Shown here: piece by piece, positions 24,913-37,382 of the stretch | Numbering within the stretch: the stretch's first letter is position 1 | How the letters are laid out: each line of letters starts with the position of its first letter | NCBI RefSeq assembly: GCF_009696275.1 | Contig: NZ_VUMI01000002.1 | Coordinates: 124,001 to 188,000 of the forward strand | Length of the DNA stretch: 64,000 bases | Source: Eisenbergiella porci | Lineage (GTDB): Bacteria; Bacillota; Clostridia; Lachnospirales; Lachnospiraceae | Direction of reading: 5' to 3' | Position numbers and translations under genes: made by a program | The notes under the pieces: generated by a model | Databases searched by the model: none | What the model saw: only the letters and a program-made list of their open reading frames with translations | Told to the model about the DNA's origin: nothing

Positions 24913-25345
24913 GGGATAAAGGCATCCGCCGCAGTTTTGCCAGTGTATAGGCCGCTGTGCGTCCGGAGCCTGCCGTCGTCTTCCGTACCGGTGTGTGCGG
25001 CCCGGGCAGCGGAGGGATGCAGGGGGATTTTATGCTCCAGTCTCAAAAACGGGGTGTTTCTAACTGTTCCGTAATGTCAGGATTCAGCCAACGTGGCCGG
25101 AACTCCTCAACATCGGTTGGCGTCGCAGGCGACTTAACCGGTGCTTCGTCAGACAGGCCACTAGGGGCGGCTGAGTCCTGGCATTCCGGAGCAGTAAGAA
25201 ACATCTCCGTTTTTTCCAATGGGGTATAAAATCCCTCTGCATCCCTCCGCTGCCCGGGCCGCACACACCGGTACGGAAGACGGCGGCAGGCTCCGGGCGT
25301 ACAGCGGCCGGTACACGGCAAAACTGCGGCGGATGCCTTTATCCC
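24913..25345. repeat. Giant palindrome A (433 bp hairpin element)
   Basis: The left arm (from GGGATAAAGGCATCCGCC at 24913) and the right arm (ending GGCGGATGCCTTTATCCC at 25345) are inverted copies at roughly 90% identity by eye over about 150 bp. The pairing continues inward (AATGTCAGGATTCAGCC with GGCTGAGTCCTGGCATT) to an apex with the blocks GGAACTCCTCA (25099-25109) and CTTCGTCAGACAGGCC (25144-25159). Open frames on both strands are mirror artefacts of the arms. It fills the space between the MATE and Ca/Na antiporter genes. Confidence 0.9.
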
Positions 25346-25633
25346 TGGAAGGGCAGGTGGGGGAGGGGAGGCAGGTGGAAAGGGGAGAACGGGAAATTGA
25401 TGGTATAGTGGGAATCAATTGAAGAAATAGAATTGGAGGGATAGATTCTGGGGTGTAAATTGCTTGACGAGTGTTGGGGGGGAAGGTATACTGGTAGCTG
25501 TTCGTCGGGGTGGGATTTATTTTGTGTGGAATGGTGTTTTTTCGAGGGGGATTGTGTTGGGGCGGCGGGGAATGTTGGTTTTTGTGATGGCTGGATATGA
25601 GCAGCGGAGTATGTTTTTTTGGAGGAAATGGAA
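25346..25633. other. C-poor, G/T-rich intergenic patch
   Basis: No supported gene. The plus strand from about 25420 to 25620 contains very few cytosines (about 13 in 195 bases counted by eye) and many G-runs. The skew continues with decreasing strength into the antiporter gene. Confidence 0.7.
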
Positions 25634-26584
25634 ATGGTTTCGGTGATTTTGTTGTTTGTGTTGGGGCTTGTTTTGATCTGCTTCGGCGGGGACAAGCTGG
25701 TGGATGCTTCGGTGGCTTTGGCCAGGAAGATTGGGATCCCGCAGATTGTTGTCGGGGCTACGATTGTGAGTATTGGGACGACTCTGCCGGAGATTCTGGT
25801 GTCTACGACGGCGGCTTTTGACGGGTCGGCGGCGATTAGCGCGGGGAATGCGTTTGGGTCGATTATCTGTAATACGGCGTTGATCGCGGGGCTTACGCAG
25901 CTGCTGCGTCCGGTGAAGAAGGTTGAGTTTGGTTCGCTGGCGTGGCGGAGTCTGTTTTTCTTTGCTACGATTCTGGCGCTGACGGCTTATGGGTGGTTTA
26001 CGGGGCATTTTGACAGAATGGCCGGGATTGTGCTTCTTGTGCTGTTTGGTGTTTATGCCTGGCTGAACATGGTGCGTTCCAAATCCGAGGAGGAGGAAAC
26101 GGCGGAGACGGAGGAGAGCCTGGAGGAGCTGAAGAAGATTTCCCTTCCCAGGAATCTGATGCTTCTGGCTTTCTGTGCGGTGCTGTTGTTCTGGGGAGCT
26201 AATCTTCTGGTGGATAACGGGATTATTATTGCAGGATATCTGGGAGTACCGGAACGTGTGATTGCGGTAACGGCCATTGCGTTGGGGACTTCCCTCCCGG
26301 AGCTGGTGACTTCCATTATGTCGGTGGTTAAAGGCTGTGAAAATGTGGGGCTGGGTAATATTATCGGAGCCAATATTCTGAATCTGCTTCTGGTAATCGG
26401 TATTCCGGCCACGGTTACGGGGATTGAGCTGGAGGCGCAGACTGTGCGTGTTGACGCGCCGTTAGGCGCTCTTGTGATGGCGGTCCTCATCGTCCCTATT
26501 TTGTTCAGGAAAAAAGCTTCCCGTATACAGGGGGCCGCTCTGCTGGCTGTTTACGGGCTGTATTGCGCATTCAACTTTTTCTGA
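25634..26584 (+). CDS. Calcium/sodium antiporter (CaCA family, YrbG-like)
   Basis: 316 residues forming two inverted homologous halves of five helices. The paired alpha-repeats carry the cation site: VGATIVSIGTTLPEILVS in the first half and AVTAIALGTSLPELVTSI in the second, each with the essential Glu, followed by GNAFGSIICN and GNIIGANILN. A charged cytoplasmic loop (SEEEETAETEESLEEL) separates the halves. The start at 25634 is chosen since GGAGG lies 8 bp before it. Codon choice in the first third is unusually G- and T-rich compared with the rest of the window. It probably extrudes calcium in exchange for sodium or protons. Confidence 0.93.
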   Translation: MVSVILLFVLGLVLICFGGDKLVDASVALARKIGIPQIVVGATIVSIGTTLPEILVSTTAAFDGSAAISAGNAFGSIICNTALIAGLTQLLRPVKKVEFGSLAWRSLFFFATILALTAYGWFTGHFDRMAGIVLLVLFGVYAWLNMVRSKSEEEETAETEESLEELKKISLPRNLMLLAFCAVLLFWGANLLVDNGIIIAGYLGVPERVIAVTAIALGTSLPELVTSIMSVVKGCENVGLGNIIGANILNLLLVIGIPATVTGIELEAQTVRVDAPLGALVMAVLIVPILFRKKASRIQGAALLAVYGLYCAFNFF

Positions 26585-35417: not shown

Positions 35418-35863
35418 TAATGTTTTCTTAAGAAGAGAAGTTGCGGCCATAGTCGGATGGGGCTGGTTTTGGGGCGGGGATGGGGGCGGGCGGTTCCGGC
35501 GGGGGGATGGCGGCTTTGGGGACGGAGGCTGGCCGGAGGGGCAGGGGTTTTGTGCGTTCCGTCGGGAAAATGGGGTATTACTAACAGTGCCGCAGGTATA
35601 AAGTGCTGTCTAAATGGCTTGAACTCCTCACTTCGTTCGTCAGACAAAGCCAAAAGGGCAGACAGAACTTTATACCTGCGGCGCTGTAAGTAATATCTCC
35701 CATTTTTCCGTAATCCACTTTCAAAACCCCTGCCCCTCCGGCCAGCCTCCGTCCCCAAAGCCGCCATCCCCCCCGCCGGAACCGCCCGCCCCCATCCCCG
35801 CCCCAAAACCAGCCCCATCCGACTATGGTTCACAACCTTCCTCCCATCTTAAGAAAAACATTA
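35418..35863. repeat. Giant palindrome B (446 bp hairpin element)
   Basis: Outer ends TAATGTTTTCTTAAGA and TCTTAAGAAAAACATTA are inverted copies. The arm blocks 35448-35551 and 35724-35827 are identical in inverted orientation over about 104 bp apart from one homopolymer length difference. The inner stem pairs CCGCAGGTATAAAGT with ACTTTATACCTGCGG. The apex holds TTGAACTCCTCA and GTTCGTCAGACAAAGCC, shared with palindrome A. The arms are strongly G-rich on one side and C-rich on the other. Open frames inside are artefacts. Confidence 0.93.
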
Positions 35864-35884
35864 GGAATTTAAGATATGGTTTCG

Positions 35885-35913
35885 TTGATTTTTTGGGGTA
35901 TATCATATATAAT
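35885..35913 (+). promoter_or_regulatory. Promoter of xpaC-telA
   Basis: TTGATT (35885-35890), 17-bp spacer, TATAAT (35908-35913), about 50 bp upstream of the start codon. Confidence 0.75.
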
Positions 35914-35963
35914 TTATCCATACGTTTATCGTGAGGGGCACTGATAGAGACAGGGAGAATAAA

Positions 35964-37382
35964 ATGAGTGATAAAGATTGGACGGACCTGGGGAATAATA
36001 TCAGGGACATGGTGGATGATGCAGTCAAGTCGCAGGACTTCAGAAGGCTGAATGAGAATATATGCCGCACGGTAACGGACGGGCTTGACACAATCAGCAG
36101 GAATATTAAGAAAAATATAGGTTATGGTGAAAATCAGGGACCTTATCAGAACAATAACGGACAGTGGGGTCCTCCATACAGCAATGGGCCGGCAGGACCG
36201 GCCGGGTCTAATCCGGGAGGGCCTTATCAGAACGGGGCCGGCGGCTGGCAGCAGGGAAATCCCGCGCAGGGCGCCCCGGGACAGGGAGCACCCTGGGGAC
36301 GCCAGAACGGTATTCCGTATGGAACCCCGGCTTCCGGACAGTGGCAGTATGGACGTCCGGCGCAGAGAGTTCAGAATACCAGCGTGCAGAATGCATTTAA
36401 TTCAGCGAAGAACAGCCTGATGCAGCATCCGCTGTTTGCCAAGACCTTCGGGGCGCAGGCCGGAGGCACCGCGCTGTCGGCGGTGGGCTTTACGGTGGCC
36501 GGATGTTCTGCGTTGGGGATACTGATAATTGCGCTTGTGGGCATTGCCAGCACCTGGCTGCCCGGCATGACGATAGCCATTTCTATTCTTGCCCTGGTTC
36601 TGGGCGGTTCCAGTATTATGGCCTGGAAGGGAACCTCCATGCTCGGCAGGGTGAAGCGGTTCCGTAAATATGTGGACGGTCTGAAGGGGCGCACCTACTG
36701 CAGCGTTAAGGAGCTGGCGGAGCATATAGGGAAAAATGAGAAGTTTGTCCGCAATGATCTGCAGAAGCTGATTAAAATCGGCTGGTTTAAGCAGGGACAC
36801 ATGGATCGGCTGGAGACCTGTCTGATTGTCAGCCATGAAACCTATAAGCAGTATGAGGAGACGCAGAGGCAGCTTGAGGACAAGCAGAAGCAGGAAAAAG
36901 AAAAGGCAATAGAGATGGAAAGACAGACCGGAGGCCTTTCCGATGAAGTGAAGGAAATGATAGAGACCGGAAATAATTATATCGCCCAGATTAAGAAAAG
37001 CAACGATGCTATACCGGGCGAGGAAATTTCCGGGAAAATTTCCCATATGCAGGTGATAGTCGAGAAAATTTTCCAGAGAGTGAAGGAACATCCGGAATTT
37101 GCTCCGGATCTCCATAAGTTTATGGAGTATTATCTTCCCACTACTGTTAAGCTTCTGGACGCTTATGAGGAACTGGACAGGCAGCCTGTTCAGGGAGAAA
37201 ACATTAAAAACGGCAAAACGGAGATTGAGAAAACGCTGGATACGCTGAATCTGGCATTTGAGAATCTGCTGGACAGCCTGTTCGAGGATACGGCATGGGA
37301 TGTTGCCACGGATATTTCCGTACTGCAGACGATGCTGGCACAGGAAGGGCTGACCGAACCGGGTATGAAGGCAGGAAGCTAA
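35964..37382 (+). CDS. xpaC: XpaC-family protein with Pro/Gly-rich linker
   Basis: 472 residues. An N-terminal helical part (1-55) is followed by a Gly/Pro/Gln/Asn-rich linker (about 58-145, repeated GPYQN-, GAPGQG-like units), two hydrophobic segments (about 178-230), then a small winged-helix-like segment (YCSVKELAEHIGKNEKFVRNDLQKLIKIGWF) and a helical XpaC domain to the end. XpaC was named for hydrolysis of an indolyl phosphate, but its physiological role is unsettled; it is regularly paired with TelA in Firmicutes, as here. ATG 35964 has AGGGAG upstream. The telA start is 31 bp downstream, so they form an operon. Confidence 0.85.
   Translation: MSDKDWTDLGNNIRDMVDDAVKSQDFRRLNENICRTVTDGLDTISRNIKKNIGYGENQGPYQNNNGQWGPPYSNGPAGPAGSNPGGPYQNGAGGWQQGNPAQGAPGQGAPWGRQNGIPYGTPASGQWQYGRPAQRVQNTSVQNAFNSAKNSLMQHPLFAKTFGAQAGGTALSAVGFTVAGCSALGILIIALVGIASTWLPGMTIAISILALVLGGSSIMAWKGTSMLGRVKRFRKYVDGLKGRTYCSVKELAEHIGKNEKFVRNDLQKLIKIGWFKQGHMDRLETCLIVSHETYKQYEETQRQLEDKQKQEKEKAIEMERQTGGLSDEVKEMIETGNNYIAQIKKSNDAIPGEEISGKISHMQVIVEKIFQRVKEHPEFAPDLHKFMEYYLPTTVKLLDAYEELDRQPVQGENIKNGKTEIEKTLDTLNLAFENLLDSLFEDTAWDVATDISVLQTMLAQEGLTEPGMKAGS

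Follow-up and report, generated by a model that had tools for sequence, protein, structure and literature searches.

Dispersed hairpin elements with a conserved core, fast-diverging complementary arms and a one-sided compositional footprint in Eisenbergiella

The window analysed here, a continuous 64,000-nt stretch of Eisenbergiella porci DNA, contains two long palindromes that are delimited by inverted repeats and read in the same orientation on the + strand: element A (24913-25345) and element B (35447-35828). Element A is flanked on the left by a MatE gene that points away from it (23439 to about 24794) and on the right by a Na/Ca exchanger gene (25619-26584), and element B has a metallo-beta-lactamase-superfamily gene and a Halogen_Hydrol gene as neighbours. 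The four flanking genes, assigned with Pfam, have no family in common between the two settings.

A preliminary description of this DNA had noticed that the same short blocks flank the tips of both palindromes, which holds: GAACTCCTCA is found exactly twice in the window (25100 and 35621), as is TCGTCAGACA (25146 and 35637), and two matches of either block were reached in none of 100 shuffles. In an inverted-repeat search, both pairs of apex blocks are the tips of the longest close inverted repeats in the window, which comprise 117 nt at 87% and 29 nt at 100% in A, and 60 nt at 100%, 109 nt at 76% and 36 nt at 92% in B. The predicted fold of each element lies 27-30 SD below its dinucleotide shuffles. 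The inner boundary proposed to be common to the two elements is equally real, since left CTAAC pairs with right GTAAG in a single helix, in which an A.A mismatch is conserved; ATCTCC follows.

Read from the left, A begins with a variable outer arm (24913..25052; inverted repeats I1 and I5, local alignment) that takes in the start of the left core block CAGTCTCAAAAACGGGGTGTTTCTAACTG (25038..25066; aligned in 13 elements). A left apex block that ends in GAACTCCTCA (25090..25109) and a right apex block TTCGTCAGACAGGCCACTAGGGGC (25145..25168), both located by exact match and alignment, enclose a tip stem (25110..25144) that is predicted by folding and differs in length among elements. The right core block CAGTAAGAAACATCTCCGTTTTTTCCAATGG (25192..25222; alignment) is followed by the right outer arm (25207..25345; inverted repeats and local alignment), which takes in the end of that block, and by an unpaired right tail beginning with TGGAAGGGCAGG, in which a motif search places the family motif GG.AGGTTRTGRA (25346..25368). 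The distal end of A (GGGATAAAGGCATCC) is of a type that recurs in the family. The interval 25099-25160, to which A had originally been assigned, thus covers only its tip. In B, the left outer arm (35447..35575) and the right outer arm (35699..35828) were defined by the same two methods, and gapped pairing carries them outward to ~35417 and ~35863, respectively; between them lie the left core block (35564..35587; alignment), the left apex block ending in GAACTCCTCA (35611..35630) and the right apex block TTCGTCAGACAAAGCCAAAAGGGC (35636..35659), both exact matches, and the right core block (35684..35709; alignment).

The exact apex pattern has 11 matches in this 6.1-Mb genome (G000). Ten of them carry the long inverted arms for which the preliminary description had proposed to check, and the remaining one, L007 (G000:C63:39035-39060), is a half element that keeps the left core and the tip; its right half is replaced, as judged by eye, by an apparent MoxR-like ATPase gene region. 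A covariance model of the core, also suggested there and built from 13 sequences, gave further matches: at least 77 strand-matches in G000, at least 72 in G012, whose element sequences match Eisenbergiella tayi DSM 26961 records, at least 23 in G006 and at least 4 in G009. From these, 43, 43, 16 and 2 distinct elements were extracted, respectively; the numbers are lower bounds, because no more than 150 candidates were scored per genome. With the same ceiling, nine other genomes of the genus gave no match. Smaller relatives are present in C. fimetarium (G015, 15 matches), Anaerocolumna (G016, two matches), G184 (two matches) and G018 (nine strand-matches at seven places), and weak model matches came from other Lachnospiraceae, one deltaproteobacterial record and Saccharibacteria. 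One Saccharibacteria record, JAEUQV01, has the same apex element at both ends of a short contig (L014, 1-3926) and at a further contig end (L039), so it is probably repeated in that small genome. Each species is represented by one genome, genes were called by simple scripts, and elements may be missing from draft assemblies.

The apex pattern is rare: it was found in three of 299 sampled genomes of the family, this genome among the three, and in two of 398 sampled genomes of the phylum including this one, where the other match (G400) looks like chance. Apex blocks that lack arms, which had been named as evidence against a family, do turn up in named records and viral contigs, and we judge them to be mostly chance. 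In the named-genome scan, part of the 70 loci have no arms, many of them being probable chance matches in coding sequence. The pattern was met at 40 loci in viral contigs; these we take as chance because none shows a closed apex stem in a ±30-nt view. A 201-base core query had no match in plasmid or phage records. Searches of the open-access literature by literal sequence or by topic returned no description of the hairpin family among the matches listed, and the family is apparently unnamed.

Viewed from outside in, an element consists of a C-poor, G-rich left tail, a variable outer arm, the left core block (in order, an A-tract, GGGG and TTTCTAAC), an inner stem of ~23 variable pairs, and an apical internal loop, GAACTCCTCA / TTCGTCAGACA, which has closing pairs of the GGC/GCC type and leads to the variable tip. 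The return side comprises GTAAGAAA, ATCTCC, a T-tract, the second arm and the unpaired right tail. Whole elements measure ~290 to 490 nt in G000 and G012. The motif GG.AGGTTRTGRA is located in the right tail of 58 of 82 elements, with a log-likelihood of 122.7 versus 33-41 in four shuffles, and a string resembling it adjoins at least one C. fimetarium element, L317. In seven G012 elements (L192, L199, L200, L202, L204, L205 and L206) and one G000 element (L168), insertion of a small GCGACTTTAGTCGC-type hairpin alters the right apex block, a hint that there may be a second mobile hairpin or a tip stem in common.

Arms and flanks were counted in 82 of the 86 elements of G000 and G012, the four with arms shorter than 40 nt being left out, and the 18 elements of G006 and G009 were counted apart. 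The paired arm outside the core has a median length of 94.5 nt (56-155) and a median complementarity of 97.4% in the 82 elements. BLAST of the arms gave only 83 related pairs at E 1e-3, so most pairs of elements have no arm similarity; 45 of these pairs fall within the G006 set, three within the trio L145/L152/L157, and the other 35 are mostly partial matches of 20-55 nt. A and B are not among the related pairs, so the statement that the outer arms are unrelated holds for them in the sense that no arm similarity is detectable, but it is incorrect for close relatives elsewhere: arm identity is 84-88% in the trio and about 75-100% in the G006 set. Such sharing among recent copies, together with a distal end of the type GGATAAACGCATCC that recurs in both species, indicates that arms are inherited and diverge fast. 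Homology of arms between loci, which the preliminary description had set against its own proposal, thus exists in part, among recent copies, and most pairs remain unalignable.

Divergence proceeds in matched pairs. Among the 282 columns compared in the trio, a difference that leaves both elements paired is seen in 41 and a mispairing in one element in 12. Eight G006 elements, over 1641 columns, give 183 matched versus 114 mispaired. Matched changes outnumber mispaired ones in these recent copies and hence appear early. Three sites are occupied in both species (L171/L189, L168/L115 and L169/L123), and there the arms are unalignable although the flanks are 75-85% identical and each copy is self-complementary. 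The divergence is large enough for neutral drift with arm-to-arm copying to suffice, and wholesale replacement of arms is not needed. Complementary yet unalignable arms, matched changes and covariation in the core support the earlier view of a family defined by its tip, to which the core must be added, with arms that change while staying complementary. Core covariation itself, with at least one double change in 35 of 50 pairs among 13 sequences, does not tell whether RNA, single-stranded DNA or arm copying is behind it.

The arms are also asymmetric. In tip orientation, G.T mismatches exceed A.C mismatches by 120:54 (p 6e-7), which marks the + strand as the strand that folds, as RNA or as single-stranded DNA. 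A makes up only 6-7% of the left arms and T only 7% of the right arms in G000 and G012, a depletion that C. fimetarium arms do not share; terminator avoidance and a biased copying step are candidate causes. Arms start with G and end with C in 83%. Distal tracts that resemble flanking DNA are seen in L209, in L210 and at the AT-rich outer end of B, and the distal arm of L169_2044 resembles, by eye, the flank at L123 in the other species. These flank-like tracts are suggestive, without amounting to proof, of an inverted duplication of flanking DNA, which the earlier description had proposed to arise by copying that starts at the tip. One diverged empty site gave no junction.

Beyond the elements themselves, the + strand is depleted in C and A to the right of the element in core orientation, and only there. 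This one-sided footprint is well supported in G000 and G012. In a profile of core-oriented flanks (20 elements per genome, 500-bp bins, ±10 kb), GC skew on the right starts at +0.28 in G000 and +0.39 in G012 and reaches baseline by ~4 kb, with C dropping to.16 and.14, respectively, while the left flank stays near baseline (about +0.03 far and -0.02 close in G000, about +0.06 in G012). Right skew is higher than left in 80 of the 82 elements (medians 0.275 versus 0.007; Wilcoxon, 5e-15), and relative to 3869 random positions in the same loci, 58 of the 82 lie above the 95th and 48 above the 99th percentile. At third codon positions, taken on the + strand for both gene directions, the values are +0.43/+0.39 on the right and -0.04/-0.09 on the left in G000, and +0.54/+0.50 and +0.18/-0.01 in G012. 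Gene direction was rejected as the cause, as the shift at third positions is of about the same size whichever way the gene reads. Nor does replication direction account for it: in a test of 39 of the 40 long loci (one was left out for an arm shorter than 40 nt), skew rises on the right in all 12 elements whose far-flank skew is negative and in 24 of the 26 whose far-flank skew is positive. In the same 39 loci of G000 and G012, element orientation relative to positive far-flank GC skew is 27:12, a mild preference for one replication strand.

Both elements of the window show the effect. The footprint of A, traced by GC skew and codon positions, extends through the Na/Ca exchanger gene (25346..26584, + strand); skew over 1200 bp is 0.010 on the left and 0.393 on the right, which is typical. 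Third positions of the exchanger gene on the + strand contain.07 A,.15 C,.48 G and.30 T, the lowest A and the highest G of 44 genes compared, one of which was mis-framed. The footprint of B (35829..37382, + strand) is weaker, with a skew over 1200 bp of -0.036 on the left and +0.195 on the right, and the gene at 35931-37382 to its right has a GCsk3 of +0.30 versus -0.07 in the left gene. Elsewhere, some elements form pairs whose right sides point toward each other, the cores being ~200-380 bp apart (L144 at 1501 and 2028, L148, L154, L165, L169 and G000:C73 31913/32133); right-flank skew in these pairs is low to moderate, from -0.06 to 0.33 where measured.

Comparison between the species indicates that the skew follows insertion. 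The right flank of L119 has a skew of +0.44 versus +0.22 in the species without an element there, and that of L126 has +0.14 versus -0.16. When the copy without an element is treated as ancestral, amino-to-keto differences relate to the reverse as 318:66 at these two right flanks and as 251:137 in two left controls (Fisher, p 1.3e-8); since the controls show an excess as well, some of the orthologue signal is not local. In a third left comparison, L140, A and G run the opposite way (A>G 25 versus G>A 45); it was kept out of the Fisher test because both genomes have elements. The L152/L202 comparison was also left out; it runs the other way and lies 756-1344 bp from a young element. Where an element is common to both species, both flanks are skewed (+0.44/+0.46, +0.54/+0.65 and +0.27/+0.28), and five elements at shared sites exceed the rest, their right-minus-left differences being 0.36-0.52 versus a median of 0.28 (p 0.0016); because its two elements face each other, the L169 pair at the L123 site did not enter this test. 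A target preference for C-poor regions was rejected, as the skew is absent or lower at the two sites without an element and stronger at the shared sites. L152 and L157, which have the most similar arms in G000, show small shifts (about 0.09 and 0.11). Across all elements, the age proxies arm similarity and arm mismatch did not correlate with skew.

The footprint fades in other lineages. In G006 and G009, where the elements mostly look like recent copies, it is weak at best: total composition is more skewed on the right in 12 of 12 elements with a right flank (L132 has none), and third positions move only from +0.06/+0.07 to +0.10/+0.11, in right genes that nearly all read in the + direction. 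C. fimetarium has no footprint, with right above left in six of 15. In G018, right exceeds left in four of five (means 0.26 and 0.33; six of seven places examined, five with enough flank), and in CAIFEZ in 12 of 16, with small values. In the OMUU, JAJGAH and Saccharibacteria sets the footprint is small or none. L075 is a strong single case.

These data lead us to two statements of graded strength. It seems about an even chance that each resident element acts as a one-way strand-exposing device, which has its polarity fixed by the core, shifts A and C to G and T on the + strand across ~4 kb of neighbouring genes, and has its arms rewritten in matched pairs. The fuller reading, which we hold tentatively and rate a little short of even, is that A and B are two copies of a dispersed hairpin element that is non-autonomous and directional, and in which the + strand folds and the + strand on the right side is repeatedly exposed by a rightward transcript with an R-loop, the arms being maintained by template switching. 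The + strand is singled out twice, by the tolerance of G.T in the hairpin and by the loss of C and A to the right. A strand that spends time single is expected to lose both A and C, as in mitochondrial and transcription-associated asymmetry. For the mechanism behind the footprint, we infer that the + strand would be transcribed rightward from the element and that the purine-rich, C-poor transcript behind the hairpin would form R-loops, which would keep the non-template + strand unpaired and so expose it to C>T and A>G changes. The same exposure would let the hairpin form, and would let replication or repair switch templates between the arms and copy each new mutation to the other arm. The arms would then drift together, and the core, recognised by some factor, would stay fixed. 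We consider rightward transcription with an R-loop behind a strong hairpin to be the most economical and the most likely reading, with nick-primed displacement as its main rival. A search for promoter-like matches for rightward transcription gave a single + match, at 25464, which is already in the right flank of A; the interval from 24800 to the left arm had none. The core also holds an A-tract/T-tract hairpin that could terminate transcription, which counts against the transcript.

In nick-primed strand displacement, which resembles rolling-circle initiation, some endonuclease would nick the + strand at the G-rich left tail; extension of the resulting 3' end would displace hairpin and right flank as single-stranded + DNA, and foldback priming would occasionally rewrite or extend the arms. 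A one-sided loss of C and A on the + strand that begins at a fixed start and decays over ~4 kb, its independence of far-flank skew, and the flank-like distal tracts in L210, L209, B and L169_2044 are all expected from such displacement, as is the + strand hairpin bias, because an excess of G.T over A.C would also arise in a hairpin of single-stranded DNA. However, the IS200-type Y1 family (PF01797) has no match in C. fimetarium or Anaerocolumna, which bear elements, and a footprint that is larger at shared sites demands that the activity recur at every resident copy. We regard this explanation as unlikely.

Alternatively, the elements may encode a functional structured RNA, for instance of a 3'-UTR or terminator-like kind, in which pairing is selected and the footprint reflects a downstream transcription unit or the choice of target. 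The compensatory changes in the core agree with such a role, as would T-poor 3' arms that avoid termination. Positions relative to genes, determined for all 104 elements with a simple ORF caller, agree on the left side: of the 42 elements with a nearest left ORF pointing to them, 25 have their left end 2-32 nt past a stop codon. The right end is within 33 nt of the end of a gene pointing to the element in only six of 35. Yet element orientation relative to neighbouring genes is mixed, occurrence is patchy, and a near-perfect, sequence-free helix of ~95 nt is hard to keep by selection on single pairs. None of 4227 Rfam families reaches its gathering score over the window; the best match below it at A or B, Hsp83_3_UTR at B (28.1 of 90 bits, E 2.5e-6), is taken as a hairpin artefact. 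We consider a structured RNA an improbable explanation.

We think it quite improbable that the elements are fold-back or MITE-like repeats that were inserted at the left edge of already C-poor regions and had their arms neutrally homogenised by template switching. Their patchy, multicopy, intergenic occurrence and the homologous arms of recent copies fit that picture, and excerpts of PMC8794818 and PMC8604942 report such homogenisation of inverted-repeat arms, but insertion into regions already C-poor conflicts with the absent or lower skew at the two sites without an element and the stronger skew at shared ones. Palindrome breakage, in which SbcCD-type cleavage of the extruded hairpin followed by resection and repair causes the asymmetry, is very improbable, since resection is expected on both sides and would expose the opposite strand on the right, whereas the effect is one-sided and follows the core rather than far-flank skew, even though palindromes of such size are substrates in E. 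coli.

Palindromes dispersed in bacterial genomes are mostly treated as inert repeats or as stabilisers of RNA. The footprint that the present family leaves is mutational, directional and on the kilobase scale; it is larger at old sites and follows neither gene nor replication direction. The family offers dozens of natural replicates of a local strand-asymmetry experiment as well as a test case of how a long helix can remain complementary when all sequence similarity is lost. If our reading is true, a dispersed element locally redirects the mutation spectrum and codon usage of its host at ~40 sites per genome; if the cause is an R-loop or recurrent strand displacement, the elements are naturally mapped sites of that process in gut commensals.

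Several known systems share features with the family. At ColE1-type R-loop origins, a structured transcript and a G-rich stretch give a stable hybrid and one-way displacement of the non-template strand; these are plasmid replication origins, and the likeness is one of description. MITEs and fold-back elements such as BOX, ERIC and Correia are recognised by shared terminal repeats and target duplications. They resemble our elements in being non-autonomous, multicopy and self-complementary, but what is conserved in the present family is an asymmetric central part, and its outer arms diverge. Mobilisation by RAYT/Y1 proteins was rejected as a general explanation, as PF01797 was found in 10 of 17 genomes and in neither of the element-bearing genomes G015 and G016; the string GAACTC..TCAGACA was absent from the 17 Y1 loci scanned, of 30 fetched. 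Enzymes more distant from this family may still play such a part.

Copying that homogenises the arms of inverted repeats is the point of contact with template-switch hairpins: excerpts of PMC8794818 and PMC8604942 report it for hairpin arms, and an excerpt of PMC3820800 links RNA:DNA hybrids to template-switch events in yeast. The excerpts of these three papers describe neither a dispersed family nor a directional footprint in the flanks. REP sequences and the GTAG- and CGTC-tagged palindromes have, according to excerpts of PMC3733652, stems of 5-13 bp and an unpaired terminal tetranucleotide tag, and the CGTC type has no dedicated transposase; the string 'clostridi' occurs 0 times in the main text of that paper. 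As far as those excerpts go, they are like our elements in being dispersed, extragenic, often just 3' of genes, and able to form hairpins. The short stem and terminal tag are not features of the present family, in which the outer arms have 56-155 paired nt (82 elements) and CGTC lies inside the apical loop. Compared with the palindromes described there, these elements are ~300-490 nt long and are distinguished by conserved internal loops, covarying arms and a one-sided footprint.
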